DNA of 64,000 nt from Thalassotalea sp. 273M-4 (GTDB lineage Bacteria; Pseudomonadota; Gammaproteobacteria; Enterobacterales; Alteromonadaceae): contig NZ_CP166961.1 in the NCBI RefSeq assembly GCF_041410465.1, positions 2,790,001 to 2,854,000 of the forward strand, read 5' to 3'. Of the stretch, positions 4,006-32,084 are shown in pieces. Numbering within the stretch: position 1 is the first letter of the stretch; every line of letters begins with the position of its first letter. The notes below the pieces were generated by a model. The model saw only the letters and a program-made list of their open reading frames with translations, was not told the origin of the DNA and ran no database searches. The position numbers and the translations under genes were made by a program.

Positions 4006-4039
4006 TTTATCTTTACATCGTCCTGAGTACTGCAGCGGT

Positions 4040-5116
4040 TTACTTACCACCTAAAAATTGAAAAACTGAAACCCGACCATTCATCATATCGACCACATAA
4101 ATTCTATCTTGCTGGTCAACCCAAATACCGCTAGGCAAATAAAACTGACCTGGTCCTTGCCCAGTGCCTCCTAATGGCATTAAAAACTGGCCTTGCCTAT
4201 TGTATACCAACATATGGTCAAAATACGATTCAATAATGTACACATTTCCATCTGAATCTGAAGCAACACCTTTGGGTCGCATCACATCGCCTAAGCGCAT
4301 ACCGCGCTGGGCGAAACTTTTTAGAAACTTTAGCTGGCCTTGCTGGTCTTCAATTAGCTGCACTCTGGCCGCTAAAGTGTCAGCAATTAACAAACCATCT
4401 GGATGCTTAGCGATAAATGTTGGGCCATTAAAGTCGCCTTCCCCATTTCCCCGTTTACCTAGGGTGTACAAAAGCGCGCCATCTAAGCTAAAGACTTTTA
4501 TATCGTGGGTTTGCGTATCAACCACATAAATGTTGTTGCTTGCTTGGTCAAAAGTCACGCCTGTCGGCCTTTTTAATGACTCTGCGGCAAGTACACCGTT
4601 AGGCATGCCCGTGCTGGCATCCAACCTAAAGACTTTTCCTAGTTCAGAGTCACTGACTAATATTTCGTTGTCCTTGCCTAAGCTAATACCTATAGGACTG
4701 ACAAACTTCACATGTTCTTTCGCACTGGGCCATTGCGCTAATGAGCCTTGTTTTTGGTCAAAAACAAACACACTTTGGTTGGCAACATCGGTAATATAGA
4801 TGCGCCCATCGGTATTAACCGCGATACTTTGTGGCCGTTTAAGTTCGACTGGGGCTTGCTCACTTTCCCCAATGACAAAGCGCCAAAATTTTTGCAGTGC
4901 GCTTTGTTGTTTTTGTTGTTCTTGCAGTAAATTTTGTTCACCAATGATATCGCCAAGGTAAATGTAATGGGCAATTTCATGACCGTAAGGCCATGATGCG
5001 TTGACATCTTCCTGTTCCAGCACAAATGCAAATTTGTGGTGTTCATCAAGTGCCGTACAGCCTAATAATGAAGTAGACACTATCAAGAACAACAACCGTT
5101 TGAGCGCATTACGCAT
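4040..5116 (-). CDS. NHL-repeat beta-propeller lipoprotein
   Basis: The 358-residue precursor has a lipoprotein signal (LLFLIVSTSLLGC), then NHL-type repeats such as LKRPTGVTFDQASNNIYVVD and FYLPSGIWVDQQDRIYVVD, about six blades in all. Such propellers usually act as binding platforms and no catalytic residues are evident. The ATG at 5116 is preferred over a TTG at 5140, because the longer form overlaps the upstream cytochrome stop and delays the signal peptide. It sits between a triheme cytochrome (stop at 5134) and the 11-haem cytochrome (34 bases downstream), so a role in assembling or docking the surface cytochrome is plausible but inferred. A related NHL lipoprotein lies at 35161. Confidence 0.85.
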   Translation of the reverse strand: MRNALKRLLFLIVSTSLLGCTALDEHHKFAFVLEQEDVNASWPYGHEIAHYIYLGDIIGEQNLLQEQQKQQSALQKFWRFVIGESEQAPVELKRPQSIAVNTDGRIYITDVANQSVFVFDQKQGSLAQWPSAKEHVKFVSPIGISLGKDNEILVSDSELGKVFRLDASTGMPNGVLAAESLKRPTGVTFDQASNNIYVVDTQTHDIKVFSLDGALLYTLGKRGNGEGDFNGPTFIAKHPDGLLIADTLAARVQLIEDQQGQLKFLKSFAQRGMRLGDVMRPKGVASDSDGNVYIIESYFDHMLVYNRQGQFLMPLGGTGQGPGQFYLPSGIWVDQQDRIYVVDMMNGRVSVFQFLGGK

Positions 5117-5133
5117 GCAATTAACTTTGACCT

Positions 5134-5514
5134 TTACCAAATAGAGGGGCCCATAGTTTCATGACCACCATAAATACCACTTTTTAGCCCTGGTTTACCC
5201 GAATGACAACGATCGCAATGATCTAAACCCCAAGCTATTTCTTCGTTATGGCACATCCCACAATAGTCACCGTCCATCAGTTTGACCATCGATATATCAT
5301 TACTACCCGCGCGCATTTCAAAACCAAGTTCTGAGTGACAAACTTTGCAGCGGAATCTAATCCGATGAAACCAATGAGGAAAAATCACTGGACGCATATC
5401 ATTCGCTTCAGCATAGCGGTTTAAAACGACATCACCGTATTCAGCATTGACACTAAATATTGTACCGATAGACAAAGCACAAAGTGCCAATAGTTTTGTT
5501 CTAATACCAGCCAT
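5134..5514 (-). CDS. Small triheme c7-type periplasmic cytochrome
   Basis: The 126-residue exported protein has a signal peptide ending VNA/EYG and three haem sites (CKVCH, CGMCH, CDRCH). It belongs to the c(3)7-type triheme group, recognisable by the FPHWFHRIRFRCKVCH stretch, where the upstream histidines are likely distal ligands. Such proteins shuttle electrons across the periplasm. It is a clear paralogue of the protein at 19394-19819, sharing the EYGDVV start and the MRPV.FPHWFHR.RFRCKVCH core. It lies two bases after the stop of the longer triheme cytochrome and is almost certainly co-transcribed with it. Confidence 0.88.
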   Translation of the reverse strand: MAGIRTKLLALCALSIGTIFSVNAEYGDVVLNRYAEANDMRPVIFPHWFHRIRFRCKVCHSELGFEMRAGSNDISMVKLMDGDYCGMCHNEEIAWGLDHCDRCHSGKPGLKSGIYGGHETMGPSIW

Positions 5515-5516
5515 AA

Positions 5517-6152
5517 CTACTTAACCTCTGTTTCTATTATGGGAGGGTAATTTTTCCCAGGGGTGGGTTGTGGACCAGGTTTGCCGGTAAACGTTTTTCG
5601 GCTTTCACTGTGACAACGTCGACATTCAGTTAAAGGAAAAGCAACGGCACCATGACATCGGCCACAATACTCGCCGGCTAAAATAGCGAACATGTTCACC
5701 GGATTTGCGCCAGATTTTTCAACAAATATTTTCGGGTGACAATTACTGCAATCAAGCCACTCGGTATGCGCTTTATGCGGAAACCGTACCATCGGCATGC
5801 CAGCCGTTGCATCCATAATAATATCTAAATCAAGTACCTTGATTTCAGTGCTTTCAAATAATTGGGTGCGAGGTACAATCACCTGTTGCTCTAATGCTCT
5901 TACCCAGTCAACTTGATTGCCAATCCCTTTATAGTCGCCAGGCATGCCTTTGAAACCATCTTCAGGATTTTGAAGCTCTGCTAAAGCAGGGTTATCAATG
6001 GCATGTAAGTCATCCTTATTGAGCTTTTGCCAATCACGATCACTGGCCATAACCAAATGACTAAGGGAAATAAATAAAATAAAAATCAATGCTTTCAAGA
6101 GAACCTCGCAGAAAAAACGACGAAAAAAACGCCTCTTACTGAGGATTAGCAT
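5517..6152 (-). CDS. Triheme c7-type cytochrome, first gene of the multihaem operon
   Basis: The 211-residue precursor has a long signal peptide ending VMA/SDRD. A region of about 90 residues follows (VDWVRALEQQVIVPR is shared with its paralogues), then three haem sites (CSNCH, CGRCH, CRRCH) in the pattern FPHKAHTEWLDCSNCH. The ATG at 6152 has a GAGG just upstream, and a TTG at 6179 has no ribosome site. The same triheme module recurs at 18451-19383, fused to a class I cytochrome, and at 36425-37498, fused to a Lcl domain. A perfect FNR box lies about 80 bases upstream. Likely periplasmic electron carrier; partners unknown. Confidence 0.87.
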   Translation of the reverse strand: MLILSKRRFFRRFFCEVLLKALIFILFISLSHLVMASDRDWQKLNKDDLHAIDNPALAELQNPEDGFKGMPGDYKGIGNQVDWVRALEQQVIVPRTQLFESTEIKVLDLDIIMDATAGMPMVRFPHKAHTEWLDCSNCHPKIFVEKSGANPVNMFAILAGEYCGRCHGAVAFPLTECRRCHSESRKTFTGKPGPQPTPGKNYPPIIETEVK

Positions 6153-6227
6153 TGTCCTCAAAATATTTATAAGAAGCAATGATACAGCTTAAGACAAGCG
6201 CTAAAAGCAACTTTTATTCCATCTATA

Positions 6228-11934: not shown

Positions 11935-11937
11935 AAA

Positions 11938-12489: not shown

Positions 12490-12491
12490 AA

Positions 12492-14480: not shown

Positions 14481-14542
14481 CAGAATTCCTAAAAATGATT
14501 GCAAACGTGTTGTCACCAAACATTTGGCATTAAAATTTAAGC

Positions 14543-16632: not shown

Positions 16633-17553
16633 TTAGCCAGGAATAAACACACCACCCATACGAATGGCTTTAACCAATTCTTTAGTTGATTTATCGATTA
16701 TTTCAATAGCCTGTTCAAAGTCGCCATCATCGGCAAATTGTTCGGACTCTAACCGATACTCTTGTGCTTTTGCAACGCGATCGTCAATGCGCTTCTTAAA
16801 GGACTCGGGTTTGCTGGCCAGCTTTTTCTCAACCAAAAGTTTTACCAACATTTTATGTGTTTCATTTCGATCAAGCTCATATGCATATTCTTCTTCTAGA
16901 GTTTCAAAAGATAACTCTCGAACTAAAGACTCGCCACGACGCATATTTTCAATGCCTGTTTTGATTAATAAGTAGGCTTCATCTAATTCAGCTCTGGCTT
17001 TTTCAAACGCTGTTTTGGCTGCCAGTTTAGCCGCGTTGCTTTTTAACTGACTGACATAGTCTTTGATTTTATTGGTTTCTTGTTGATTTTGCTTTTCTAT
17101 CCCTATTCGCCCTAGTGCTTCAAGTAAGGCATTAACACTTAATAAGCGGCGTTCGTAATCACGTTTTTTCTTTCTGTCCGTCATAGCTTTTGGCGATGCC
17201 AGTCGAATGGCCGCATACATTTTTTTAACGGTCTTATCTAATAATAAATCGACTTTATCGTTATCCGTCTCTGAAGCGGCTTGCAAATACACTTTACGCG
17301 CTTCTACGTACGCTTGATGGGCCTCTGAATTGGAACTTTGCATCACTTGCTTTGCGCCTGAAGAGGTTGCCAATAATTTTCGCAAATAAACAAATCTTGA
17401 TGGCTTGCCATCGACATCTTCAGGCAATGGCACATTTTCCAGCATTGATGACAGTTGCGGATTTATTTGTATATCAGCGCTTTTAACGCTAGGGCTCGCC
17501 ATTGCTAATGATACCGCAAAGGGCACTGCAAAAACCCAATATAAAAATCTCAT
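16633..17553 (-). CDS. Exported helical protein of unknown function (paralogue of next gene)
   Basis: The 306-residue protein has a signal peptide ending SVKSA or ASP and is otherwise almost entirely predicted helix, rich in Lys, Glu and Ala, with no cysteine or haem motif. Its C-terminal third (from about residue 220) aligns with the upstream gene product, both ending in a pattern like DKSTKELVKAIRMGG. I do not recognise the family. AGGA eight bases before the ATG supports the start. Its place between triheme cytochromes and a PAS sensor suggests a periplasmic adaptor role, which is inference. Confidence 0.75.
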   Translation of the reverse strand: MRFLYWVFAVPFAVSLAMASPSVKSADIQINPQLSSMLENVPLPEDVDGKPSRFVYLRKLLATSSGAKQVMQSSNSEAHQAYVEARKVYLQAASETDNDKVDLLLDKTVKKMYAAIRLASPKAMTDRKKKRDYERRLLSVNALLEALGRIGIEKQNQQETNKIKDYVSQLKSNAAKLAAKTAFEKARAELDEAYLLIKTGIENMRRGESLVRELSFETLEEEYAYELDRNETHKMLVKLLVEKKLASKPESFKKRIDDRVAKAQEYRLESEQFADDGDFEQAIEIIDKSTKELVKAIRMGGVFIPG

Positions 17554-17563: not shown

Positions 17564-18451
17564 CTAAAAAATATTTAGCCCTGTTGCCCGCAAGGCTTTC
17601 TTTAATTGCTCATTTGCCTTTTCCATCAGCTCAATGGCTAAGGCAAAATCTTCCTTGTTTGCGGCGATTCGCGCGCTTGTGTGTAACGTCTGGGCTTGTT
17701 GCTGCCAATCTTTTAAACGACGTTCTTTTTTCTCGCCAAAAACGTTCTGCTCACGTTGTCGCTCGATTAAAATAGAAAAGCTGGCAAAGCGCTTTACTTT
17801 ATAATCAAATTCATTTTTAGGCTCACTAAAATCAAGGCGAATTAAGGTCGTTTGCTTGTCTTTTAATTTCGATAAGGTCATGACCAAAATTCGATAGGCA
17901 TCATCTAATCGTTTCTTTGCCTCGACCAGATTACCTTGAGAATAATTGCGCTGTGCTTGCGTTTGTAATTGACTGACTTGTTGCCTTTGTTGCTCGCCCC
18001 ACTCATCCGCTTGTTCTGTAAGCGTTTGGTTTAACGATTGCTGAAAATCATCCACTGACTGTTTTAAGGTGTTGTATTCTTGTTTCGTCACGCGCGCATC
18101 AGGTAAGGGCTTTTGCACAAAACTGCGTGCGTAGGTCATATTAATTACCGCTTGATCGGCATGCTGCTTGGCTTTTTGTAACTGGTTATCGTCAATCGCC
18201 TGTTGTGCTAATGACCACTGTTTCTTGGTGTAATTAACACTGTCAGCAAAAAGGCCTGGTTGTTTTAATCTGGCCGCTGATTTTTGCTCGATATCGCTCA
18301 CAACCTGTTCCACCAGTTGCAACTTCTTCGTCAGCTGAAACTTTAACTTGCTATCGTTTGAAGGTGGCGCTGAGGTAGCCAAAACATATGACCCACCTAG
18401 CGCACATAATATCGCCATGGCTTGAATACATTTTTTACCACGGCTATTCAT
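17564..18451 (-). CDS. Exported helical protein of unknown function (paralogue of previous gene)
   Basis: The 295-residue protein has a signal peptide (cleavage near LATSA) and long helices with heptad-like Gln/Lys/Leu runs suggesting a coiled coil. It aligns with the downstream gene product over the conserved region beginning LDFSEPKNEFDYKVKR and at the C terminus (MEKANEQLKKALRATG). The ATG overlaps the stop of the preceding cytochrome gene (TAATG), so translation is probably coupled. No enzymatic motif is seen. Confidence 0.75.
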   Translation of the reverse strand: MNSRGKKCIQAMAILCALGGSYVLATSAPPSNDSKLKFQLTKKLQLVEQVVSDIEQKSAARLKQPGLFADSVNYTKKQWSLAQQAIDDNQLQKAKQHADQAVINMTYARSFVQKPLPDARVTKQEYNTLKQSVDDFQQSLNQTLTEQADEWGEQQRQQVSQLQTQAQRNYSQGNLVEAKKRLDDAYRILVMTLSKLKDKQTTLIRLDFSEPKNEFDYKVKRFASFSILIERQREQNVFGEKKERRLKDWQQQAQTLHTSARIAANKEDFALAIELMEKANEQLKKALRATGLNIF

Positions 18452-19383
18452 TATTTTTTATTACTCGCAACAAGAGGCTTTTTCTTATTTTGGGAATGGC
18501 ATTTACGACAATCCGACACCGGAAAAGCGACTTTACCATGACACACGCCACATTTTTCCCCCATTAAAATGGATGCCATTGATATTTGATTGGCGCCTTT
18601 CTTTGGGATGAAAATATCTGGGTGGCAATTAGAACAATCCAGCCACTCTGTATGTTGTTTATGTGGGTAAACCACATTGGGCATAGAACCTTTTACTTCT
18701 CGAACAATATTTAAGTCCATCACAAAAGGTTGTTTATTCGCATCTTCTTTATCCCAGCGCGGTATAATCAATCCTTTATCTAAAGATTTAACCCAGTCCA
18801 CCCGATTGCCAGAACGCGACTTTTCAATATTATCAAACAGCTCTTTAGGCTCTTGTAACATATACGCCCCTTCACCATCGGGATCATGAATGCCATCTTC
18901 AAACGGTGCGGGGTTCCATTCTGAAGGTGGTTTCATTAAACGGTTAAAATTCATAACCTTAGCATTTTTACGTTTGGCGACCTTAGTTGATGCGGTTGGC
19001 GTTGGTTTAGGTGCAGTGGTTATTGCCTTAGAAGTTGTCGCTTTAGCAACGACCTTATTGCTTGCAATGACCACGCCAGCTTCTTTTAGCATATAAGCGA
19101 CAACATCTTTAATATCTTGCGCACTTAACGAAAAGTTACCACCTTTAGCTGGCATACTGCGCACCCCATTAATCGCATTATTATGCAAACTATCAAGACC
19201 TTTATCAGCGCGAGGTTGCCAGTCATCTTTACTGCCAAGTTTCGGTGCCCCCATGACGCCTGGCTTATGACAAGAAGCACAGAATGCGTCAGAGATTTTG
19301 TTGCCGTTCGCAATATCTGCTGAAAAGGCACTTAATGCTGTTCCCGCTAGGAACAGTCCGGCTAATATGTTTACGTATTTCAT
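18451..19383 (-). CDS. Tetrahaem fusion: class I cytochrome c plus triheme c7-type module
   Basis: The 310-residue protein has a signal peptide ending AFS/ADI, then a class I cytochrome domain at about 25-105 (CASCHKPG, Met in the RSMPAKGG loop). A Ala/Thr/Lys-rich linker follows, then the triheme module with CSNCH, CGVCH and CRKCH. The module shares FEDGIHDP, VDWVKSLDKGLIIPR and FPHKQHTEWLDCSNCH-like stretches with the proteins at 5517 and 36425. Joining a single His/Met haem to three low-potential haems would let it bridge different redox partners in the periplasm. The ribosome site is AGGGG. It follows the small triheme gene by ten bases. Confidence 0.87.
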   Translation of the reverse strand: MKYVNILAGLFLAGTALSAFSADIANGNKISDAFCASCHKPGVMGAPKLGSKDDWQPRADKGLDSLHNNAINGVRSMPAKGGNFSLSAQDIKDVVAYMLKEAGVVIASNKVVAKATTSKAITTAPKPTPTASTKVAKRKNAKVMNFNRLMKPPSEWNPAPFEDGIHDPDGEGAYMLQEPKELFDNIEKSRSGNRVDWVKSLDKGLIIPRWDKEDANKQPFVMDLNIVREVKGSMPNVVYPHKQHTEWLDCSNCHPDIFIPKKGANQISMASILMGEKCGVCHGKVAFPVSDCRKCHSQNKKKPLVASNKK

Positions 19384-19393: not shown

Positions 19394-19819
19394 CTACTTC
19401 TTTGCTTTTTCGGCTGGACCGACTAACTGCTGTACTGTACTGCCATGAACTTGCGTTGGGGTACCTGGTGTGCCTGAGTGACAAAGATTGCAGTTTTCAA
19501 CTGCCCAAGCAATTTCACCATTATGACAAGCGCCACAGTACTCACCATCAATAATTTTAAGCATGTCAATTTGATTACCACCGGCTTCAAATTTAAAGCC
19601 CAGATCAGCATGACAAACTTTGCAACGAAAGCGCGCTCGATGGAACCAGTGCGGAAATACAACAGGACGCATACCCGCTTCTTCAGAATAGTTATTGATC
19701 ACAACGTCGCCATATTCGGCGTGTGCTTGTTGGGAGGTAAATAGGTTAACTGAAACCAGCAACCCAACAAATAAGGCAAAGATTGGCAACCTTAATCGAA
19801 GGCGATTGGAGAAATTCAC
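19394..19819 (-). CDS. Small triheme c7-type periplasmic cytochrome
   Basis: The 141-residue protein has a signal peptide ending AHA/EYG and haem sites CKVCH, CGACH and CNLCH. It is the paralogue of 5134-5514, sharing FPHWFHRARFRCKVCH and the EYGDVVINNY start. It is the first gene of an operon of five. The operon repeats the short-plus-long triheme pair of the 581-6152 cluster in the opposite order. Confidence 0.88.
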   Translation of the reverse strand: MNFSNRLRLRLPIFALFVGLLVSVNLFTSQQAHAEYGDVVINNYSEEAGMRPVVFPHWFHRARFRCKVCHADLGFKFEAGGNQIDMLKIIDGEYCGACHNGEIAWAVENCNLCHSGTPGTPTQVHGSTVQQLVGPAEKAKK

Positions 19820-20005: not shown

Positions 20006-21814
20006 TTAGAAATTGAAATTACGCTTTATATTCAACGCTAAGTGGTAGTAGTCTTCGGTCATAGTGGCGTTAAAATCTAACTCGAGAAGACCAATTCGAT
20101 AGTCCAGTTTATTATGCCAATTGGCCACTTGTCGGCTATTGCCAAAACGGTTTTCATCGGGCAATAAATCATTAAGGGGTACCCGAAGTTCTGAGGTAAA
20201 GCGTAAATTTTGAATATCCCAGAGCTCGGTATTACGATAAAATAAGTTCCCCCACGCTCGGTTATAAGTTCCGCTACTGCCGTCGTCAAAAACCGTACTA
20301 TTCCACTCGTAAACAAAGTCACCGCCCCAGCTGTCATAGTCACCTAGTTGAGTGCTTCGACGAAGCGTAAGGTATATTTGTTGAAAGCGGTCAAGATCGT
20401 CGGTTAAGTGACGGGTATCAGATAAGGTTAATAAGGCTGTTGAACTCACCCCACCTTGATAAGCGCTCCATTCAAAATCTAAGTCGTGACTTATTTGCCA
20501 TTGTTCTGGATCTACATTTTTAGCATTATTAACTTGGTGAGAAACCAGTTGATCAAAACTGATTTGCAAACTGGTGTCATAAACGCTTATAAATTTGGTA
20601 AAGCCATTACCCATTCTGAATGCGTAATTTTCGCCATTGCGATCGCCTCGGTCTAAACCAATGCCATTATTGACCATAAATTGATAACGGATGGATTCAC
20701 TAAGTTCAGCACTTTGTTGATAACTGGCGTTGGCAAATGCAGCATAAAATTGACTGCCGTTACCATTGCTTTCTGAATAATAAGAATCGATTGAACCATC
20801 AAACTGCCAGTTCTGGTCATAATCATATATGGTGGCAAAATACACACTGGCATTTTTCGCCGTATTGGCACTATTAGAAAATCCGCTTTCCAGCTGGGTC
20901 TGATTGATATAAGCATTAAGGTTATAGGTTAGGTTTTCAATTTCTTTTGAGCGAATAAACGACGACACATTGGTTTGAAAAACATCATAGCCTGAACCAA
21001 TTTTAATACTCTGATTGTTGAGCACGTTAACACTGTCTATAGCGTACTTGTCAGTGCTCACACTGGCATTTAAATAAACACTGTCTTGCTCATTGAACTG
21101 CCAATCCTGAAGATATTGTAAAGACAGGTTTTGGCGTAAATCTTGGCTCAGCAGGTTGTCACTTTCATACTCTATATCTAGCTTGTCTGCTCGTGCGATA
21201 AGCTTATAATCGCCCCTGCTGTGGCTATCGTTAAATTCAAAATCCAACTCATGATCCAGACGTTTGCCATCATCACTTTCTGTACTACTGGCAAATTCAC
21301 GATCAAAAAGAGCTCGATAGTTTATGCGGGTGGAAAAACTAGCCCCAGTCGGTGTATAGGTGTTCGTAACATGAAAGTCGGTGTGAGCATATTCATAGCC
21401 CCGACGTCCGCTATGTGAGCCTAAAGTTTGGCCAAGTCTAAATATGGTCGGGTAATCAGAATCTGGATATAGCTTAATTTGCTGACCCGCAAAAGCAGAA
21501 ATGGTCGAAATGGTTTCATTGCTATTTACATCATAACTACTGGTATTGGCTTTTAATTGCGAGGTTACTATGGTGGTCGCAATCCAAGGTTTGTCGATAT
21601 AGCCAGACCAAACATTCTCATTAAAGATCTCCCCTAACCAAGAGCCTTTACTGCTACTATTGTTAAGGTCATTATCAAATTGGTCGTTTTTGGAAAACGA
21701 AAAACCAACGTAGCCATCGGTACGTTGGTTATTATCGTATAAATTTATCCAATCCGCTGCTTGTACCCAAGTTGGTATCAGACACAAGCTCACTACAGCA
21801 ACCCGTCGGAACAT
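20006..21814 (-). CDS. Outer-membrane beta-barrel protein, candidate cytochrome-conduit porin
   Basis: The 602-residue precursor has a signal peptide ending VQA/ADW. Alternating-residue, Asn/Asp/Tyr-rich strands run throughout, and the C terminus reads IKRNFNF, a typical barrel ending in Phe. The size fits a barrel of well over 20 strands, like the MtrB/PioB or Geobacter porins that sheath cytochromes. It lacks the CXXC pair seen near the N terminus of MtrB, so I do not assign it to that family by name. It follows a parvulin foldase gene by 36 bases and neighbours the tetraheme cytochrome. The ATG at 21814 is used; the codon before it is TTG. Confidence 0.7.
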   Translation of the reverse strand: MFRRVAVVSLCLIPTWVQAADWINLYDNNQRTDGYVGFSFSKNDQFDNDLNNSSSKGSWLGEIFNENVWSGYIDKPWIATTIVTSQLKANTSSYDVNSNETISTISAFAGQQIKLYPDSDYPTIFRLGQTLGSHSGRRGYEYAHTDFHVTNTYTPTGASFSTRINYRALFDREFASSTESDDGKRLDHELDFEFNDSHSRGDYKLIARADKLDIEYESDNLLSQDLRQNLSLQYLQDWQFNEQDSVYLNASVSTDKYAIDSVNVLNNQSIKIGSGYDVFQTNVSSFIRSKEIENLTYNLNAYINQTQLESGFSNSANTAKNASVYFATIYDYDQNWQFDGSIDSYYSESNGNGSQFYAAFANASYQQSAELSESIRYQFMVNNGIGLDRGDRNGENYAFRMGNGFTKFISVYDTSLQISFDQLVSHQVNNAKNVDPEQWQISHDLDFEWSAYQGGVSSTALLTLSDTRHLTDDLDRFQQIYLTLRRSTQLGDYDSWGGDFVYEWNSTVFDDGSSGTYNRAWGNLFYRNTELWDIQNLRFTSELRVPLNDLLPDENRFGNSRQVANWHNKLDYRIGLLELDFNATMTEDYYHLALNIKRNFNF

Positions 21815-21850
21815 CAAATTATTCTGTTAAGATGTAAGTTTGGCCAATGA

Positions 21851-22864
21851 CTACTTAAATTCGTCGTTAATGTGCACGTTAGCCGATTCTACTAAGGCTA
21901 ATCGCGTATCTTGCCACAAGCTATCTGTGGTATCACGCACGGCCAAACGACGCGCTCTGGCTTTGACTTCATCATACGTGTGTCTAGTGGCAGGATTACG
22001 CCCCGTCAATTTAAAGATTGCCACACCATCTAAAATAAATACTGGCGGTGTAATATCGCCAACCTCCATGGTTGCTATAAGCTCTTCCACTTCCGTTGAA
22101 ATCATGCCTTTATGCACTAGCCCCATATTACCACCTTGATCTGCTGTAATATCAGTTGAATGCAACATAGCGAGCTCCGAAAAATCTGCACCATCAACTA
22201 ATTTTGCATGAATTTCATCCACTTGTTCTCGGACCGCTTCCCAGACAAAACGAGTCGCATTAGGTGCAACACCGATAAGGATGACGGCCAGTTTATTTTG
22301 CGGAGGTTGGGTAAATTTATCTCGGTTATTTTCAAAGTAAGAAATGACGTCTTCTTCGCTCAACTTTACAGAATCAACAATATGTTTTTTATAAACTTTG
22401 GCTAATGCCATATTACGATAAAGGGTGCGATACATCGCAATATAATCGTCTTTAACCTCAGGCCATTTGGGATTATCGGCGTTACGGTCAATGGTACTGT
22501 CAAGATCCGCTTCAAGCTTGCTAAAATCAGCCGTTAGTCCTAATTTTCGCGCTGCATTGGCCGCTACAAATAAATGAATTAACTCATCCTTTTGCTCTCT
22601 AGCAAACTTTTCTTCTTCACCTTCTGGTGGCTTACCATGATAATAAGTGTTGCGATTTTGATAGTTATAAAACTCTCTAAACATCGCTACTGAAATAAGC
22701 TCACCATCGACCGTTGCAAACTCTTGCTCAAACACACTAACAGCTTTTGATTCACTCGCTTGTTCAGCGTTTTTGCTTGTCGTAGTCGACTCAGATTGAG
22801 CGAAAGTTGGCACATTCATAGTGATTGAAGATGCAATTAATGTCAGGCATAACCATTTTTTCAT
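21851..22864 (-). CDS. Periplasmic parvulin-type peptidyl-prolyl isomerase (PpiC/SurA-like)
   Basis: The 337-residue protein has a signal peptide ending TFA/QSE, a helical N-terminal region with a SurA_N-like start (FATVDGELISVAMFREFY) and a rotamase domain at about 185-305, with the GGNMGLVHKGMI and VGDITPPVFILDG elements of parvulins. It should help fold exported or outer-membrane proteins. Being co-transcribed with the barrel gene suggests that it is a dedicated foldase for that barrel or for the adjacent tetraheme cytochrome. An FNR-like promoter lies upstream. Confidence 0.85.
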   Translation of the reverse strand: MKKWLCLTLIASSITMNVPTFAQSESTTTSKNAEQASESKAVSVFEQEFATVDGELISVAMFREFYNYQNRNTYYHGKPPEGEEEKFAREQKDELIHLFVAANAARKLGLTADFSKLEADLDSTIDRNADNPKWPEVKDDYIAMYRTLYRNMALAKVYKKHIVDSVKLSEEDVISYFENNRDKFTQPPQNKLAVILIGVAPNATRFVWEAVREQVDEIHAKLVDGADFSELAMLHSTDITADQGGNMGLVHKGMISTEVEELIATMEVGDITPPVFILDGVAIFKLTGRNPATRHTYDEVKARARRLAVRDTTDSLWQDTRLALVESANVHINDEFK

Positions 22865-23044: not shown

Positions 23045-23079
23045 TTGATAAAAAAAGGCTAACCCTAGGGTTAGCCTTT
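23045..23079 (-). terminator. Strong terminator of the tetraheme cytochrome gene
   Basis: A 26-base perfect palindrome at 23054-23079 (arms AAAGGCTAACCC) is followed on the minus strand by a run of T. It isolates the tetraheme gene from the foldase operon. Confidence 0.88.
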
Positions 23080-23098: not shown

Positions 23099-23944
23099 TT
23101 ATTTATCGTGACATGCTAAACAAACTGCACTTCCGGTATTATCAATACGTAAGAAGGTGTTTGTTTCAGATTGGTGAGGATCATGACAGCTTGCACATTC
23201 TACGAATGGTTCAATATCACCACTTGTTGTACCTGTGCGGCTATAAAGTACCATATCTTCTTTTTCACGCTTGTCAGTTGCACCACCAGCTGTATCAACC
23301 CACCATACTTGGTTGCCATTGATATTCGCGGTTGCCGGCGCATGGAAGTCCGCATCTTTTTGTTCAACACCAGCGCTTGCTGTAGGATCTGTTGCAGTGT
23401 AACCACCCCCGGCGTATTGAATGCCAATTGGGTGATCGTTTTTAAGTGTTGCTGAATCGCCAGCAACCGCTGCGAAACCATTCATTTTACCGCTAGTTTG
23501 AGTACCACCTTCCCAAACTACAGAAGCAATAGTGTCTTCACCTGAACCAGATTCGTTTGACATCACGTCCATTGCTTGAGAGCCATCGTGACAAGATAAA
23601 CAAGCGATAGATACAGAACCAACCGTTAGCGTTTCACCGTCGATAGAGGTTGAGTTCATATCCGCATAAGTTTCGTATGTGCCGGGCTTAAACGTTTTAT
23701 TCCAAAGTGGCGCATCAATACCAGAATTGGCACCGTGTGGCGTATGACAGAATACACAAATTTCTGTCGCATCTGGTGTTTTACCTGCTTGTGCAGTAAC
23801 CGTTGACAATTTGTTGTTTCCTGCTGCACCACTTGTTCCTAAGTTGTGCTTAGTATCTGCAATACCAGCGTTTGCGGTTGCAGCCGTTAGCAAAGTAGAC
23901 GCGATAATCGCCGCTATTGCATTGGTTTTAGTGAAGAGTTTCAT
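23099..23944 (-). CDS. Tetraheme c-type cytochrome resembling filament-forming OmcE-type cytochromes
   Basis: The 281-residue protein has a signal peptide ending ANA/GIA and four haem sites at C63-H67 (CVFCH), C115-H119 (CLSCH), C250-H254 (CASCH) and C275-H279 (CLACH). The last site is two residues from the C terminus. Histidines outside the motifs occur at 33 (KHN), 70 (TPH), 171 (DHP), 201 and 257 (DPH), enough for bis-His ligation of all four haems. Length, haem number, the CVFCHTPHG start and the C-terminal haem recall Geobacter OmcE, which polymerises into extracellular nanowires. Whether this protein polymerises is inference. It is monocistronic, with a GAGGAA ribosome site, its own terminator and a near-consensus sigma-54 promoter. 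Confidence 0.85.
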   Translation of the reverse strand: MKLFTKTNAIAAIIASTLLTAATANAGIADTKHNLGTSGAAGNNKLSTVTAQAGKTPDATEICVFCHTPHGANSGIDAPLWNKTFKPGTYETYADMNSTSIDGETLTVGSVSIACLSCHDGSQAMDVMSNESGSGEDTIASVVWEGGTQTSGKMNGFAAVAGDSATLKNDHPIGIQYAGGGYTATDPTASAGVEQKDADFHAPATANINGNQVWWVDTAGGATDKREKEDMVLYSRTGTTSGDIEPFVECASCHDPHQSETNTFLRIDNTGSAVCLACHDK

Positions 23945-24081
23945 TGCATGTTCCTCATTTTCAGGGTTTCATCTTCATTGATGTTCGATAACGATGACAT
24001 TACTATTCGTTTGTCTTAGAACTCTCGCTTCAATAATATTTGGATGATAATTTTTAGCAAAAGTGTCTTATACCGTTAATA

Positions 24082-24098
24082 AGCAACCACTGTGCCAA
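24082..24098 (-). promoter_or_regulatory. Sigma-54 (RpoN) promoter of the tetraheme cytochrome gene
   Basis: On the minus strand the sequence reads TTGGCACAGTGGTTGCT, which matches the consensus YTGGCACG-r-N3-TTGCW at every specified base but one. The -24 GG and -12 GC are exactly 12 bases apart. Transcription would begin near 24071, giving a 127-base leader before the ATG at 23944. A sigma-54-dependent response regulator is encoded 4 kb upstream, at 28002-29360. Confidence 0.8.
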
Positions 24099-24474
24099 AA
24101 ACCCAGAACAACAATAAATAAATCACAAAAAAAACGTCTATCAAGCTGTAGAGCCCAACATTACTGTACATGTATTTATTTAATTTAATTTAACCACCAT
24201 GCTCTAACAGGTTGTTATTTCATTTTTTAATGGCTAAGAGGCTGAACTTTCTCATTATTGAGATTGCTCTCTTAGTTGTGGAAATGGCAGTAGAGATAAT
24301 TGCTGAACTGGTTCTAAAAATGACACGCTTGCGATGAGTTTTTCTTCCCTAAAGGTGAACAGAGCGAAAGCAGGAGTGGATAAAGAATGCATTTTAAATG
24401 TCAAAAGCACAAAGGTAGAGGTTAATTTCGGAGCGAACAAACGCCAAAGGTTTAACAAGGATAATAAGCGTAAT

Positions 24475-24503
24475 ATAAAAACCGGAAGCAAGTGCCTCCG
24501 GTT
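24475..24503 (-). terminator. Terminator at the end of the propeller/two-component operon
   Basis: An 11-bp stem with one mismatch (left arm AACCGGAAGCA) is followed on the minus strand by TTTTTAT. It lies about 50 bases after the stop of the propeller gene at 24552. Confidence 0.75.
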
Positions 24504-24551: not shown

Positions 24552-25754
24552 TCAGTGATCAAAATGACTGATCCGAGCGACGCCACCATAGCTACCGATC
24601 CACAGGGTACCGTCATCTTGAACATCCATGGAAAAAATCGCATCGGCAAATAAACCATCTTCTGTGGTATACAAAGTAAACTCGTCACTGTCTTTGGTTT
24701 TCTTCGCCATACCTTTACTGGTACCAATCCACAAAGTGCCTTCTTGATCTCGGTTTAGCATAAAAATATGGTTCGACGGTAAACCATCAATATGGGTGTA
24801 AACTTTCCAATTTTCGCCATCGAAGCGATTTAGGCCTCCACCCCAAGTGCCAACCCAAACGGTACCATCTTCTTCAACGTCCATCGACACAATATAATTG
24901 GGGTTATAAGCCGTATTTACACCGGTTAACCCTTGCTCAATTTTTTGTTGGGCATGATGACGCGAAAAGTTAGCCGGATCGCGCTTAAATGGATTAAAGT
25001 CTTTAACCAACTCATAATCAGCGCCTAATCCATCTTCATGTTGCCAATTTTGCCATTGGCCTTGATTATAGCGCGCTAAACCACCTTCGGTTGCTAGCCA
25101 GATTTGCCCATCGATGCCTTCGGCTAACCCGTAAATCCAATCGTTAGGCACACCTCCATTGGTATTCTCAACGGTATAAAGCTCCCATGCGTTTGGATCG
25201 TCAAGATCGCCACCGACAATACGGTTAACCCCGGTCCACGTGGCAATCCATAGATCGCCATTTTTCGCGGTAAGTACATCATAAACAAAGGCGTCGCCTA
25301 AACCGTTTGGCACATTGTAAATAATCATTTCATCTGTGCTTTCGTTCAATACGGCAAGGCCACCACCATACGTGCCAATGGCCATGCGATTTTTGTCAAT
25401 GCGGCTAACGTGAAACACGCCATTTGCCAGCAAGCCATTACGTACGCTAAAGTGGCGGTAGTCTTCTGTTTGAGTATCGTAACGAATAGCACCACCTGAG
25501 GTGCCGACCCACATGATATCACCATCTGAAAAAATCGATTTTACATTACGATTACCGACGTTAAAGTGAACAAACTTACTTTTTGGTTCGGTTGTTTGCA
25601 ACGTTGGATTTTGTGCTTGTTGAACAGGCTGGTCTGCTCGCTGTTCGATTTGAACCACGTCTTCAGTTTTGCTCTTTTCCTGAGCTTGCTGTGTATCGAA
25701 AAACCAATACAGCGCGCCAGCAAAGATAACAATGATTGCAAAAAAATATTTCAA
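24552..25754 (-). CDS. Membrane-anchored seven-bladed propeller (two-component-regulator-propeller type)
   Basis: The 400-residue protein has an N-terminal membrane anchor (about 3-17), a Gln-rich linker and seven repeats of the type LWIGTSKGMA or VWVGTWGGGL, so a seven-bladed propeller. These repeats are known from sensor parts of hybrid kinases, but here the propeller stands alone outside the membrane. It is a paralogue of the next gene upstream and shares an insertion containing YNPNY. The start is TTG, well supported by AAAGGGG six to seven bases upstream. It is the last gene of the long operon and ends at a terminator. Confidence 0.8.
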   Translation of the reverse strand: MKYFFAIIVIFAGALYWFFDTQQAQEKSKTEDVVQIEQRADQPVQQAQNPTLQTTEPKSKFVHFNVGNRNVKSIFSDGDIMWVGTSGGAIRYDTQTEDYRHFSVRNGLLANGVFHVSRIDKNRMAIGTYGGGLAVLNESTDEMIIYNVPNGLGDAFVYDVLTAKNGDLWIATWTGVNRIVGGDLDDPNAWELYTVENTNGGVPNDWIYGLAEGIDGQIWLATEGGLARYNQGQWQNWQHEDGLGADYELVKDFNPFKRDPANFSRHHAQQKIEQGLTGVNTAYNPNYIVSMDVEEDGTVWVGTWGGGLNRFDGENWKVYTHIDGLPSNHIFMLNRDQEGTLWIGTSKGMAKKTKDSDEFTLYTTEDGLFADAIFSMDVQDDGTLWIGSYGGVARISHFDH

Positions 25755-25816: not shown

Positions 25817-26896
25817 TTACTTGAACACTGTACCTTGCAATCGGGTCACACCACGACGTGTTCCAACCCAAATATCTCCATTAGAGCTTTGCGCTATTGA
25901 ATACACATTATTGTCTAGGAGGCCATTACTTTGATTAAAGTTTTGCCAGTTAACCCCATCAAATCGAGATACCCCACCATTGGTGCCAAACCATAAAGCA
26001 CCGTCTTCGGCTTGAATAATGGCATACACTATATTACCGGCCAAACCATCTTTCGCACTTACATTAGACCACTTACCGTCTTTGAAGTTGGACACCCCTG
26101 CCCCCCAAGTGCCAACCCATACCGAGTTGTCACGAGCGTCTAGTTTCAAGGCGAAAACATAATTGGGGTTATACGTCGCTTTACCGCCGGTTAAGATACC
26201 TAAATCGTGACGAGAGCGGGTACCTAGGCCGGTATTTTTACTAAACGGTAAGCCATCTTCGTTACCAATACCGATACCATCTTCATGGGTCCAGTGGGTC
26301 CAATTTTCACCATCAAAACGGCTTACACCACCTTCGGTGCCAAACCAAACGGTACCATTTTCTTCAATATCTACCCCATAAACCCATTCATTAATCAACT
26401 CTTTTACATAAGTGTCAAACTTTAAGGTTTCGCCATCAACGCGATTTACACCTGCCCATGTACCAACCCACAAACTACCATCGGGGTGATTGGCAAATGA
26501 ATAGACCCAATAATCGGCTAAACCATGAATGGGAAAAAATGTTTTCCATTCACCATCTTTATAACGCGACATCCCCCCCGCATTGGTGCCAAACCATTTA
26601 TAACCTTTTTCATCGACGTTAATTGCAAAGACGTATTCATTCGCTAAGCCATGTTCACGGGTAAATGTGGTTTTTAAATCGCCACTGACGGTGTCAACTT
26701 GATGCACCCCCATGGCGGTACCAACCCAAAGAGAATTTTTTTCAGTTTCAACTGCAAGTGAACGTACAAAAGCATTGTCACCAACGTTATACTGCTCTTT
26801 AACGTTATAAATTACGATATCTGGTTCGGGCTCTGAACAAGCGAAAAGAAAGCTTGAGAGGGTAAATAAAAGCAGATATTTTCTAATCAATGTCAT
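25817..26896 (-). CDS. Seven-bladed propeller lipoprotein (two-component-regulator-propeller type)
   Basis: The 359-residue precursor has a lipobox (SSFLFAC at about residue 20) and seven propeller repeats (for example LWVGTAMGVHQVD, VWFGTEGGVSRFDG, IWVGTRRGVTRLQ). It carries no kinase or DNA-binding domain. It starts three bases after the small cytochrome stop and is followed by a paralogous propeller. A scaffold or docking role for surface or periplasmic redox proteins is inferred from context. Confidence 0.82.
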   Translation of the reverse strand: MTLIRKYLLLFTLSSFLFACSEPEPDIVIYNVKEQYNVGDNAFVRSLAVETEKNSLWVGTAMGVHQVDTVSGDLKTTFTREHGLANEYVFAINVDEKGYKWFGTNAGGMSRYKDGEWKTFFPIHGLADYWVYSFANHPDGSLWVGTWAGVNRVDGETLKFDTYVKELINEWVYGVDIEENGTVWFGTEGGVSRFDGENWTHWTHEDGIGIGNEDGLPFSKNTGLGTRSRHDLGILTGGKATYNPNYVFALKLDARDNSVWVGTWGAGVSNFKDGKWSNVSAKDGLAGNIVYAIIQAEDGALWFGTNGGVSRFDGVNWQNFNQSNGLLDNNVYSIAQSSNGDIWVGTRRGVTRLQGTVFK

Positions 26897-28001: not shown

Positions 28002-29360
28002 TTAGGCGTCAACTTGGGTCGACTCTTCTAGCTTGCGATATAAACTCGATAATCCTAAGCCAAGTTTTTGCGCTGCCATTCTTCTGTCTTGAGCACAGTC
28101 ATCAAGCGTTTTTTTGATCATATCAATCTCAAAATCTCGCACCATTTCTCGCAATGTTTTATCACCAGAAACCATTGCTTTTGTATGACTTAACATTTGC
28201 CCTGGTAAATCTTCGGTACGAATAATATCGTCTTCGGCGAGAATTAACGAACGGGCTATAACGTTTTCAAGTTCGCGGATATTGCCTGGATAAGGGTAAT
28301 TAATCAGCAACTCCATGGCTTCGGGTTCGACCTCATAACCTTGGGCTAAACCCAGTTTTTTAGATTCGCGGGCAATAAAGAAATCGATTAATGCGGCAAT
28401 ATCATCTTTTCGTTGCTGGAGCGATGGCAAATGAATATTAAAAATATTTAAGCGAAAGTATAAATCTTCGCGAAATTTGTGCTCTTTAACCATGTCTTGT
28501 AAATCACAGTTCGTCGCGGCAACAATACGAGCATCGATATCCAGAAAGCGCTCACTGCCTACCGGACGTACTTGTTTTTCTTCTAATACATGCAGCAGTT
28601 TAACTTGTAAGTGAAGGGGTAACTCACCGATTTCATCAAGAAAAATGGTGCCACCATCGGCTTCGGCAAATAAGCCTTTTTTCGCTTTTACCGCACCAGT
28701 AAAGGCGCCTTTGGTATGACCAAACAATTCACTTTCAATTAAATGCTCAGGGATGGCACCACAATTGACTGGAATAAAAGGCCCGCTTGCTCTTAAGCTA
28801 TTTTGATGGATGGTCCGAGCCGTTACGCCTTTACCGGTACCGCTTTCACCTGTGATCAATACCGTCGAGTCGGTTTTAGCCACTTTTTTAATCAGTCGCT
28901 CAACTTTAAGCATGGTATCAGATTGCATCGCGCATTGACGGTCACCAATGCCCATAACCAGGCCTCGCAGCACTTTATTCTCTGACTTTAGACCAATGAA
29001 ATCAGCAATTTGCTGAATCCGATGGATCACGTCTTCCGGTCGTAATGGTTTGGTTAAATAATCAAAAGCACCATTGCGCATCGCTTCTATCGCAGTATTA
29101 ACTGAGGCAAACGCAGTCATAATAATAAATTGGCTTTCAATGCCTTTTGCTTGTGCCTTCTTAAGCAGTTCAATACCGGTAAAGTCAGGCATTCTTACAT
29201 CGGAAAAAACCACATCATATTGATTCGTCATCAGCTCAGCTAAGGCAGAGCCAGCATCTTCAGCGGTTTCGACATGGTGTCCCTCTCGCTCAATGATACT
29301 GGTCATGATCTGACGAATAGCGGGTTCGTCATCGGCAATTAAAATGTTTAACTTTTTCAT
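28002..29360 (-). CDS. Sigma-54-dependent response regulator (NtrC family)
   Basis: The 452-residue protein has a receiver domain at about 1-120 (ADDE acidic pocket, SDVRMPD phosphoacceptor Asp), an AAA+ domain at about 145-375 (Walker A GESGTGKG, sigma-54 contact loop GAFTGA, Walker B FLDE) and a Fis-type helix-turn-helix at the end. It should remodel RNA polymerase-sigma-54 at distant promoters. Its start overlaps the kinase stop (ATGA), so it pairs with the upstream kinases. The sigma-54 promoter at 24082 is the strongest candidate target in the window. Confidence 0.95.
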   Translation of the reverse strand: MKKLNILIADDEPAIRQIMTSIIEREGHHVETAEDAGSALAELMTNQYDVVFSDVRMPDFTGIELLKKAQAKGIESQFIIMTAFASVNTAIEAMRNGAFDYLTKPLRPEDVIHRIQQIADFIGLKSENKVLRGLVMGIGDRQCAMQSDTMLKVERLIKKVAKTDSTVLITGESGTGKGVTARTIHQNSLRASGPFIPVNCGAIPEHLIESELFGHTKGAFTGAVKAKKGLFAEADGGTIFLDEIGELPLHLQVKLLHVLEEKQVRPVGSERFLDIDARIVAATNCDLQDMVKEHKFREDLYFRLNIFNIHLPSLQQRKDDIAALIDFFIARESKKLGLAQGYEVEPEAMELLINYPYPGNIRELENVIARSLILAEDDIIRTEDLPGQMLSHTKAMVSGDKTLREMVRDFEIDMIKKTLDDCAQDRRMAAQKLGLGLSSLYRKLEESTQVDA

Positions 29361-30589
29361 AGTGCTCTATCTGTTAATGGCAACGAAAGTGTCACTTTGG
29401 TAAACTTTCCAACTTGCGAGTCAATAGCCAAAGAAGCGTGCATCGACTCGGCTAAATTTTTACAAATAACCATGCCAAGACCCGTGCCTTGCTCTTTGGT
29501 GGTGTAAAATGGCTCAAAAATCTTTTCGATTATTTCGGCTTTAATACCACAGCCGGTGTCCGTAATTTCAATAACTAAATTATGCTCAGTAAGCGAAATA
29601 TTCGTGTTGATTTCACCGTTAGGCTGCTGTTGTAATGCGTCCATAGAGTTGGAGTAAATATTCAGTAAAATTTGTGTCAGCTTACCTTTATGAGCCCTAA
29701 TTGCCGGCACGCCAGTGACGGCCTGATAATTAAACTCAATGTTATGACCACGTTTATCGAACTGTGCTAATTTGATCAGTTGTTTGGTTAAGTTAGCAAT
29801 ATCAATTAAATCGTTTTCATCACTGCTGTGAATGGATATTTGACTAAACTCATTTTTAATTTGGTTGATTCTACTTGCTTGTTGCTGAATTAATTGCAAA
29901 TCATCTTTTAGGGTCTGCAAAACGACATCACTACCGCCCTGTTCTAATTGCCATAACTGGTTGTAGGCAATCCCTTCGATGGCGGCCATAGGATTACCAA
30001 CTTCATGTAAAATGCCCGCCAAAAATTCACCTGTGGTGGCCGCTTTATTTTGCTTTTCTAACTGTTGTTGTAATTGATTAACCGGTCTTTGGTCTGATAA
30101 ATAAAAAGCTAACGAACCATTTTTTAACTTTAACACACTGATGCTAATAGCGACTTCGTTTTGATCTGGGGTCATTAATACAAAATCTTGCTGATCAGGA
30201 CTGATGGTTTGGCAGTTACAAAGCTCACTTTTTTTTATTTTTCGAAATTTTTGATTATTTTGCAAACAAGAAGGTAACTGCGGAATAAGTCGATAAATGC
30301 TACTGCCAATAACATCATTTTCGCGACCACCGATCAATGTCAGTGCGGCATTGTTGAGATACGAAATATTACCTGCATTATCTGTCAGCAAAACAGGCTG
30401 ACTAGCGAACTCCATGACCTCAAAACGTGTCGTCTTTTTCGTGACAACCTGACGATAAATAAAGGCCCCAGAAAACAAAGCGAACAACGGTAAGGCTGCA
30501 ATATGTATTGGCAGTAACTGCAAATAAAGGCTAGCACTGAGAGCATTAAAAGACACAACGGCCATGACAATGAACAATAATTTAAACAT
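29357..30589 (-). CDS. PAS-containing membrane histidine kinase
   Basis: About 410 residues with two transmembrane helices (about 3-45), a PAS domain at about 55-165, a dimerisation/phosphoacceptor segment GILHEVGNPMAAIEG and an ATP-binding domain (NIYSNSMDAL, DTGCGI, GTGLGMVI). The ATG at 30589 overlaps the upstream kinase stop by eight bases and has a good GAGGTGG ribosome site. A longer frame back to 30709 would overlap the neighbour by 128 bases and is rejected. With the preceding kinase it forms a two-kinase, one-regulator set. Confidence 0.88.
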   Translation of the reverse strand: MFKLLFIVMAVVSFNALSASLYLQLLPIHIAALPLFALFSGAFIYRQVVTKKTTRFEVMEFASQPVLLTDNAGNISYLNNAALTLIGGRENDVIGSSIYRLIPQLPSCLQNNQKFRKIKKSELCNCQTISPDQQDFVLMTPDQNEVAISISVLKLKNGSLAFYLSDQRPVNQLQQQLEKQNKAATTGEFLAGILHEVGNPMAAIEGIAYNQLWQLEQGGSDVVLQTLKDDLQLIQQQASRINQIKNEFSQISIHSSDENDLIDIANLTKQLIKLAQFDKRGHNIEFNYQAVTGVPAIRAHKGKLTQILLNIYSNSMDALQQQPNGEINTNISLTEHNLVIEITDTGCGIKAEIIEKIFEPFYTTKEQGTGLGMVICKNLAESMHASLAIDSQVGKFTKVTLSLPLTDRAL

Positions 30590-32084
30590 CGGTAGCCACC
30601 TCGTTGGTAACATGCTGAGCAGTAGTGGCTTGCTGCTCAAAATACACTCTAACTTCGGTGCCTTTATGCTGTTCAGAGGTGATATTAATTCGTCCATTAT
30701 GGGCTTCAATAATGCTTAAGCTGCTATACAAACCAAGCCCACTGTGTTGCAACGGATCTTTTTGGGTAAAAAAAGCATTAAAAGCCTGGGCTAAGGTGGC
30801 ATCGTCCATCCCCTTACCATTGTCTTTAATCGATAATACGATTTCGTTATTGATCAGTAAGGTACGAATTAAAATAGTGTGTTTATGTTGAGATTTAGCT
30901 TCCAGTGAATTATTCAACAAATTACTTAATAACAACTTTAATTGGCCGCTAGAGCCAAATAAAGCGGGCAAATGAGAGGCTAATTCGAGTTCAATTTCTA
31001 TACCATACCAACGCTCATCATAGTTCAGCACATTGGCTATTTGTTCAATCAACTCATTGACATCAATCAAGGTCTGCTGACTGCTGGTTGGGGTCGCAAT
31101 TTTAGCTAAATCGTCTTTTATAATTTGCAGTTTTTGATTGTACTCGCCAATGGTGGCTAAGTTATTTTTTACATCATCGGGCAATTGAGCACCATAGTAG
31201 TCAATTAAACTTAACATCCCACTGATGGCTGCAACAGGGTTGCCTATTTCATGCACCAAACCTGCGGTTAAATGCTCTATTGCGCCCAAACTTTCAGCAT
31301 GCGACTTATCAAGCTTTTCTATTTGCAGTTGACGGTCTCTTTCATCAAGCGCCAGAGACATCTCATTAATACCAAACATCAGTTGACCAATTTCATCATC
31401 ACGGGTGTTTTTAAGTAACGTCGATGGTTTGCGCGCAACAATGTCTCTAATTTGCTTAAGGATTTTTCCCACGTCTTTGTTTACTCGCGAGAAAAATAAA
31501 CTTGCCGTTATAACCAAAAACAACATCCCAGTTAAAGCCAGCATGACCATTCGAAAAGCCACTCGGTCACTGGTTTTTTCATACTCGAAAATCAGGTCGG
31601 TTTGTGCTTGTTTGTTCTCAAGAATCAAAGTATTAAGCTGCGATTTATGAGTTTCTAAGTTTAATCTCACTTGCCTTAAATCTTCGCTATTGGGTGACAT
31701 AACCACTTTAGCCAAGCTACTTAACAAACTGTAAAACGATGGAGCTCGCTCAGGGTATAAGGCGGCAATATTTTCATAATGCTTGGTTAAACCAATAAAC
31801 TGCTGGTGAACTTCAATTAAGACTTCTTTGCGAGCAGCCGGCTCAAATAACACCACAAGTTGGGTTATAGCATCAAATACCGCTAAATCAGCTTCAAGCA
31901 ACAGGCTTTGTGCCTGTTGCAGTTCATAAATACCACTTAGTTTTTGTTCTAAAATTGATTTTTGTTCAAAACTGTAAATAAAAACCGCACCGATACAGAA
32001 GCTCATCAAGGCAATAAACAGTAAAACTTTTCCGCGTATGGTGTTATGAAAGGCTGTTTGATCAAATTTATTATTTTTGTTCAT
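30582..32084 (-). CDS. HAMP-containing membrane histidine kinase
   Basis: The 500-residue protein has transmembrane helices near 20-40 and 175-198, a periplasmic four-helix-like sensor of about 135 residues between them, a HAMP domain, a phosphoacceptor motif GLVHEIGNPVAAISG and an ATP-binding domain (NLLNNSLEA, DNGKGM, GLGLYSS). The ATG at 32084 overlaps the thioredoxin gene by 14 bases, indicating tight co-expression. Its signal is unknown. Co-transcription with a thioredoxin and cytochromes suggests envelope redox state. Confidence 0.88.
   Translation of the reverse strand: MNKNNKFDQTAFHNTIRGKVLLFIALMSFCIGAVFIYSFEQKSILEQKLSGIYELQQAQSLLLEADLAVFDAITQLVVLFEPAARKEVLIEVHQQFIGLTKHYENIAALYPERAPSFYSLLSSLAKVVMSPNSEDLRQVRLNLETHKSQLNTLILENKQAQTDLIFEYEKTSDRVAFRMVMLALTGMLFLVITASLFFSRVNKDVGKILKQIRDIVARKPSTLLKNTRDDEIGQLMFGINEMSLALDERDRQLQIEKLDKSHAESLGAIEHLTAGLVHEIGNPVAAISGMLSLIDYYGAQLPDDVKNNLATIGEYNQKLQIIKDDLAKIATPTSSQQTLIDVNELIEQIANVLNYDERWYGIEIELELASHLPALFGSSGQLKLLLSNLLNNSLEAKSQHKHTILIRTLLINNEIVLSIKDNGKGMDDATLAQAFNAFFTQKDPLQHSGLGLYSSLSIIEAHNGRINITSEQHKGTEVRVYFEQQATTAQHVTNEVATDV

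Follow-up and report, generated by a model that had tools for sequence, protein, structure and literature searches.

UetA, a tetraheme cytochrome of Thalassotalea sp. 273M-4

The stretch of DNA analyzed here (the window, 64,000 nucleotides of the genome of Thalassotalea sp. 273M-4) carries on its reverse strand the gene uetA (23099..23944), an open reading frame (ORF) of 281 amino acids whose homology and histidine pattern identify a tetraheme c-type cytochrome of the OmcE family and a probable filament subunit. The N-terminus of UetA is signal-like as judged by eye, and four CXXCH motifs lie at residues 63, 115, 250, and 275. A first-pass annotation, made from the sequence alone, had counted the same four motifs, had placed the last heme two residues from the C-terminus, and had pointed to accessory histidines in KHN, TPH, DHP, and DPH contexts, all of which is borne out: the accessory histidines are K-H33-N, TP-H70, ND-H171-P, and DP-H257, and the chain ends with CXXCH-D-K.

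These features were compared across 80 named loci, the best 80 of 542 confirmed relatives, so that more distant members lie outside the sample. The eight expected ligand histidines (those of the four CXXCH motifs, H33, H70, H171, and H257) are invariant in all 81 sequences, that is, the window and its 80 relatives, and the ninth histidine, H201, is not conserved among them. None of the 80 relatives has more or fewer than four CXXCH motifs, each chain stops two residues past the last one, and K281 is kept in 80 or more of the 81 sequences. Because the 542 relatives were found by peptide patterns covering part of heme motif 1 or motif 2, the conservation of these two motifs is partly by construction. 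Models of the UetA monomer were poor (predicted local distance difference test scores of 37 and 59), and even the better one, from AlphaFold, was too poor to place the ligands or to address ligation between subunits.

Relationship of UetA to OmcE

Searching the PDB with the single UetA sequence returned 9YUQ (E 1.4e-21) and OmcE, the filament subunit of Geobacter sulfurreducens (7TFS, 4e-19), with one further match at E 0.29, and a profile of 17 homologs returned 7TFS (4.9e-33) and 9YUQ (1.1e-32), with the next match at E 0.23; OmcE and 9YUQ are the only PDB relatives of UetA below E 0.2. In each alignment, the eight-histidine pattern is contained in two segments; the OmcE segments cover both chain ends, and the middle of UetA does not align to 7TFS. 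The resemblance to OmcE proposed earlier therefore survives the alignment, in which all eight histidines are paired. Both proteins are tetraheme and share the order KH - CXXCHTPH - CXXCHDG - NDHP - CXXCHxxH - CXXCHxK-end, but UetA has 27 more residues between NDHP and heme motif 3 (79 versus 52), an extra stretch within the region where the monomer model has its highest confidence. Above threshold, Pfam and NCBIfam recognized only the doubled-CXXCH motif in UetA, plus Cytochrome_C7 in Pfam, and a PHROGs search gave no match. On the evidence of its sequence, UetA is assigned to the OmcE-family tetraheme cytochromes. The OmcE filament is described, in the accessible parts of three papers, as having a histidine ligand contributed between subunits (PMC9473688; PMC12954529; PMC12307469). 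The second relative, 9YUQ, contains 16 chain copies in one entry, which suggests that it too is a filament; a literature search of limited reach found no publication carrying this code.

A second protein of the locus bears on this relationship. The gene uetJ (1600..4050, reverse strand) encodes an undecaheme cytochrome with 11 CXXCH motifs, the N-terminal third of which is an OmcE-like four-heme module containing KHN, FCHTPH, NDHP, and CHDPH, followed by seven more CXXCH motifs. Such a four-heme module with its histidine arm was found in 44 of 49 UetJ-like ORFs, many of them cut by locus ends, and it could let UetJ dock on the end of a UetA filament. A tree was built from 59 sequences: the window and 21 selected from the 80 relatives as UetA, 18 UetJ modules (a cap excluded further ones), the two PDB chains, and 17 small paralogs. 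In it, UetA forms one clade (support 0.70) and the UetJ modules another (1.0). OmcE and 9YUQ stand beside the UetJ N-terminal modules at a support of only 0.46, and the tree does not put OmcE nearer to UetA than to the UetJ N-terminal module; at so low a support, UetA and OmcE need not be exact orthologs. The notion of an orphan OmcE ortholog acquired from Geobacter is not supported, since the tree and the gene neighborhood described below suggest that UetA forms a separate proteobacterial clade, although no Geobacter locus was part of the comparison. Besides the longer spacing before heme motif 3, UetA differs from OmcE in this separate clade and in its setting in a Uet cluster.

In a number of loci, a small second OmcE-like cytochrome ending in CXXCHxK is encoded about 2 kb upstream of uetA, beside an NHL gene (for example, L034:7766-8542, L043:7809-8534, and L069:7841-8608). 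Of the 17 small paralogs in the tree, 13 form a separate clade; they are possibly an alternative filament subunit.

The Uet gene cluster

The gene at 23099..23944 is the counterpart of uetA in the published Uet (undecaheme electron transfer) cluster, and its neighbors, all on the reverse strand, fit the same scheme. Downstream follow uetB (21851..22864), for a PpiC-type peptidylprolyl isomerase (PrsA/SurA-like), and uetC (20006..21817), for a probable outer-membrane beta-barrel. Next come a uetD-like triheme c7 cytochrome (19394..19819) that matches TIGR04257 (nanowire_3heme), a uetE-like protein in which a class I cytochrome c domain is fused N-terminally to a triheme c7 (nanowire_3heme) domain (18451..19383), a 295-aa ORF that belongs to the cluster and has no family match above the cut-off (17564..18451), and a conserved 306-aa member without a Pfam match (16633..17553). 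The second half of the cluster comprises two triheme c7 proteins (5517..6179 and 5134..5514), a uetH/I-like NHL beta-propeller (4040..5140), and uetJ. TIGR04257 has five matches in the genome, all inside the window. Upstream of uetA lie two Reg_prop beta-propellers (24552..25754 and 25817..26896).

Where the locus left room for the gene in question, the cluster recurs among the 80 named loci in a usual order: uetA, a peptidylprolyl isomerase (76/77; 72/77 under a stricter rule), a barrel-sized large ORF (71/71), two triheme cytochromes (the c7 protein in 68/68 and the fused protein in 66/66), a roughly 300-aa ORF, a further one or two triheme cytochromes, an NHL propeller (56/58), and a large multiheme cytochrome (51/58). 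The gene had been called isolated, which does not hold, for uetA heads a conserved cluster. Nor is it peculiar to this gammaproteobacterium: the relatives found belong mainly to Beta- and Gammaproteobacteria and Magnetococcales. As for the foldase and barrel said to adjoin it, the foldase is present, as is a barrel-sized ORF, the barrel nature of which is read from its place, its size, and a C-terminal aromatic residue (48/70 relatives), with neither a Pfam match nor confirmation by a model.

In cathode- and iron-oxidizing bacteria, the Uet pathway is a known porin-cytochrome route. In its available text, PMC10734462 lists UetJ as an undecaheme cytochrome, UetA as an extracellular tetraheme cytochrome, UetDEG as triheme cytochromes, UetB as a peptidylprolyl isomerase, UetHI as NHL proteins, and UetC as a porin; a tetraheme, a peptidylprolyl isomerase, a porin-sized protein, triheme, NHL, and undecaheme proteins are all encoded in the window, as in the Uet cluster of Ca. 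Tenderia electrophaga and Gallionella. A conserved uetABCDEFGHIJ cluster of Tenderiales is also cited in the accessible part of PMC12575090, and a Candidatus Tenderia contig (L059) carries a homologous block of uetA, peptidylprolyl isomerase, and two triheme cytochromes. The assignment was made by published description, and the letters of individual triheme and NHL genes were given by order. By contrast with the published cluster, that of Thalassotalea sp. 273M-4 is split into two halves with other genes between them, is preceded by the two Reg_prop propellers, two kinases, and an NtrC-type regulator, and occurs in a genome without a RuBisCO match. Between the two halves (11467-14519), some genes resemble, by eye, cytochrome c maturation factors.

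Within this cluster, uetA appears to form a transcription unit of its own. A hairpin with a T-run lies behind it (23054..23079, reverse strand), and a terminator-like hairpin lies behind the upstream propeller gene (24480..24503, reverse strand). A simple scan found two such hairpins in the uetA stretch against 1.8 in shuffles. Because the count alone hardly exceeds the shuffles, the monocistronic reading of the first-pass annotation draws on the placement of the hairpins and on the relatives, 28 of 80 of which have a terminator-like hairpin behind uetA, compared with 35 of 800 control windows; the strong terminator that it described stands as a hairpin in the right place, and not as a hairpin count above background.

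UetA, UetB, and UetC diverge rapidly. Compared with Thalassotalea sp. G2M2-11, they are 47, 44, and 32% identical, respectively, versus 71-75% for the first triheme cytochrome, the propellers, and the regulator; compared with another genome of the same genus (G011), they are 61, 49, and 45% identical, versus 76-84% for the slower genes. Across loci, the median pairwise identity is 48% for UetA, 38% for UetB, 23% for UetC, 59% for UetD, and 53% for UetE. This pattern is compatible with a filament that is exposed and with the parts that export it, although it is not specific: the kinase (41%), the Sel1 protein (39%), and the small cytochrome (47%) are also divergent with respect to G2M2-11, as are the 295-aa ORF (45%), the kinase (47%), and the Sel1 protein (37%) with respect to G011. 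The idea that the three genes form a distinctive fast-evolving trio was consequently rejected. In a mirror-tree analysis, UetB co-varies with UetC (partial correlation 0.34) and not with UetA (0.01); thus, there is no support from this analysis for UetB as a foldase dedicated to UetA, and it may instead serve the barrel UetC.

Sigma-54 promoter and candidate enhancer

Sigma-54 promoters carry GG at -24 and GC at -12, and the consensus used here was TGGCACG-N4-TTGCW. A predicted -24/-12 promoter, TGGCACAGTGGTTGCT (24082..24097, reverse strand), lies 153 nt upstream of the uetA ATG and matches 11 of the 12 bases, in agreement with the single mismatch read earlier. It is the only site with at least 11/12 matches on either strand of the window (0.5 expected). 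Since the whole genome contains 33 sites within one mismatch against 20 for a reversed-pattern control, the uetA site alone is weak evidence, and the weight of the promoter claim rests on its conservation in relatives. In G011, a site matching all 12 bases lies 148 nt upstream of uetA as a conserved block amid otherwise diverged intergenic DNA. Upstream sequence of 200 nt or more was available in 78 of the 80 loci; of these, 39 carry a site of at least 10/12 and 16 a site of at least 11/12, compared with 2.6 and 0.7%, respectively, of random control windows that were taken from the same loci and are unmatched in composition. A site of at least 9 matches at 55-135 nt was found in 28/30 betaproteobacterial, 6/6 Magnetococcales, 8/34 gammaproteobacterial, and 6/8 other loci, with taxa taken from record titles and start codons set by a rule of thumb. 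These data argue that uetA is under conserved sigma-54 control. Neither this control nor the membership of UetA in the OmcE family was found in the literature examined, and the regulation is the freshest part of the analysis.

Upstream of the two propellers, the window encodes an NtrC-family sigma-54-dependent response regulator (28002..29360, reverse strand), a candidate activator of uetA, and a PAS histidine kinase (29357..30709, reverse strand), its candidate partner. A palindrome, TCTCA-N4-TGAGA (24250..24263), is a candidate enhancer for this regulator. Its longer form, TTCTCA-N4-TGAGAA, was first noticed in the window, in G011, and in the G2M2-11 locus (L057). In the genome, the exact core is present twice, as often as the reversed control pattern; among the named loci, it was found in 1 of 7 bearing the regulator and 0 of 72 others. 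When mismatches were allowed, which was done only after other upstream regions had been seen, 8 of 9 regulator-bearing loci reached at least 10/12 and 5 of them 11, as against 2.3 and 0.1% of shuffles for 10 or more and for 11; beyond the three loci that gave the motif, 5 of 6 reached 10 and 2 reached 11. Loci without a regulator in view reached at least 10 in 12 of 72 cases, which is above the shuffles, and 11 in none. The palindrome lies 164-187 bp upstream of the -24 element in 7 of the 9 regulator-bearing loci (121 in L049 and 89 in L103). Flanks extended to at most 10 kb, and a regulator may lie out of view in loci counted as lacking it. It seems plausible, judging by this recurrence, that the palindrome acts as an enhancer bound by the NtrC-type regulator.

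It could be argued that both the site and the palindrome arose by chance and that uetA is expressed from an ordinary promoter. Single-site statistics are indeed weak, the palindrome core is neither rarer nor commoner in the genome than its control, the exact core is shared by so few regulator-bearing loci, and the control windows were drawn without regard to the composition of upstream regions. On the other hand, chance would hardly place a perfect site in a conserved block of G011, a site at a similar distance in nearly all betaproteobacterial and all Magnetococcales loci, and the near-exact palindrome in loci with the regulator only. Coincidence is therefore considered very improbable. Weighing specifically against a tie between the promoter and the NtrC-type regulator, sites of at least 11 occur in 0 of 7 regulator-bearing loci versus 16 of 71 without a regulator in view.

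Possible function of UetA

On balance, we lean toward the view that UetA is an OmcE-family cytochrome that is exported and polymerized into an extracellular heme filament, and that it is switched by sigma-54 together with an NtrC-type regulator; this is somewhat better than an even proposition. In such a model, UetA would be exported to the periplasm and loaded with four bis-His hemes, and it would then pass through the outer membrane, a step in which UetB and UetC may take part. Outside the cell, it would polymerize into the filament, with one of the four histidines outside the CXXCH motifs ligating a heme of the adjoining subunit, as happens in OmcE. The triheme cytochromes would feed the filament, with which UetJ would be compatible through the N-terminal module that it shares with UetA. 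The gene would have a sigma-54 switch of its own, which in this genome the nearby NtrC-type regulator would probably operate via the palindromic enhancer. Polymerization of UetA into conductive surface filaments is probable. A partial parallel exists in the Osc cluster for the OmcS nanowires of Geobacter, in which, by the accessible text of PMC13194489 (citing Shen et al., 2025), a foldase, secretion parts, and a morphology protein are encoded with the filament cytochrome. The parallel is one of description only, and OmcS is a hexaheme protein without sequence similarity to OmcE, according to the available part of PMC9473688.

Alternatively, UetA may be a monomeric tetraheme shuttle, soluble or surface-bound, that links the UetC/triheme conduit to UetJ, with all eight histidines ligating its own hemes. 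The presence of the same four-heme pattern in most UetJ-like ORFs indicates that the module can exist without polymerizing, and no filament is mentioned where the accessible text of PMC10734462, a paper on Gallionellaceae, describes UetA. By contrast, one of the two solved relatives is a filament and the other has multiple chain copies in one entry, and a free-standing chain that ends at its last heme in all relatives, with a terminator behind the gene, better suits a structural subunit made in bulk; such a shuttle is accordingly judged unlikely, though not negligible. A further possibility is that UetA polymers stay short, as heteropolymers or as a stub with a UetJ cap, and lengthen the outer-membrane conduit by a few nanometers in place of making a micrometer wire. 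The frequent pairing with UetJ in loci with room downstream and the shared histidine arm and four-heme pattern would suit such a stub, but the promoter of its own and the hairpin behind uetA, which recurs in relatives above the controls, suggest that UetA is made in excess over the rest, and this version appears improbable.

Returning to the polymerizing UetA, it is tempting to speculate that the Uet pathway as a whole is a nanowire system, in which UetA is the wire subunit, UetJ caps or anchors the wire via the shared four-heme module, and wire production in Betaproteobacteria, Magnetococcales, and some Gammaproteobacteria is governed by a conserved, dedicated sigma-54 switch that an enhancer drives; this broader proposal is tentative and more doubtful than filament formation by UetA. 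No paper linking UetA or UetJ with OmcE was found in the literature examined, although the link may be made elsewhere (e.g., Eddie, 2022; Baquero, 2023); in their accessible text, PMC10734462 does not mention OmcE and PMC12575090 does so only inside a reference title. If UetA polymerizes, OmcE-type wires would be present in many Proteobacteria beyond Geobacter-like metal reducers, including iron oxidizers and cathode-associated lineages, and named isolates would be available for testing the disputed role of cytochrome wires. In addition, what kind of regulator switches on a wire gene can be predicted from the conserved promoter.

Distribution and host context

Named carriers of UetA among the relatives include Thalassotalea, Dechloromonas, Aromatoleum, and Ramlibacter. 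The host, a marine bacterium, has a genome of a single contig of 3.37 Mb, and its GroEL shares 94% identity with the GroEL of Thalassotalea sp. G2M2-11 and 93% with that of G011. Among 58 related genomes searched (14 of the same genus, the host itself excluded), only G011 contains uetA. Of 368 genomes drawn across the class, 50 gave a match to UetA at 1e-10 or better; 39 of the 50 reach E 1e-30 or better, and the remaining matches are other multiheme proteins. Given these two counts, the distribution fits patchy acquisition or loss. A contig labeled Caldilineales (Chloroflexota) (L087) encodes a UetA of 46% identity, by transfer or by contamination of a metagenome-assembled genome.

Since the host genome gave no match to RuBisCO, electron uptake for Calvin-cycle autotrophy is unlikely in this organism. 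A porin of the MtrB_PioB type is encoded elsewhere in the genome (G000:C1:1875924-1877630) and is a second possible electron conduit, and MtrCAB of Thalassotalea is mentioned in the accessible text of PMC8805035. Taken with the lack of a RuBisCO match, these two observations suggest that outward electron transfer is the likelier direction in the host. Further along the window (36425-37498), an unusual ORF fuses an Lcl_C domain (PF07603) to a triheme c7 domain and adjoins a gene for an NHL protein.
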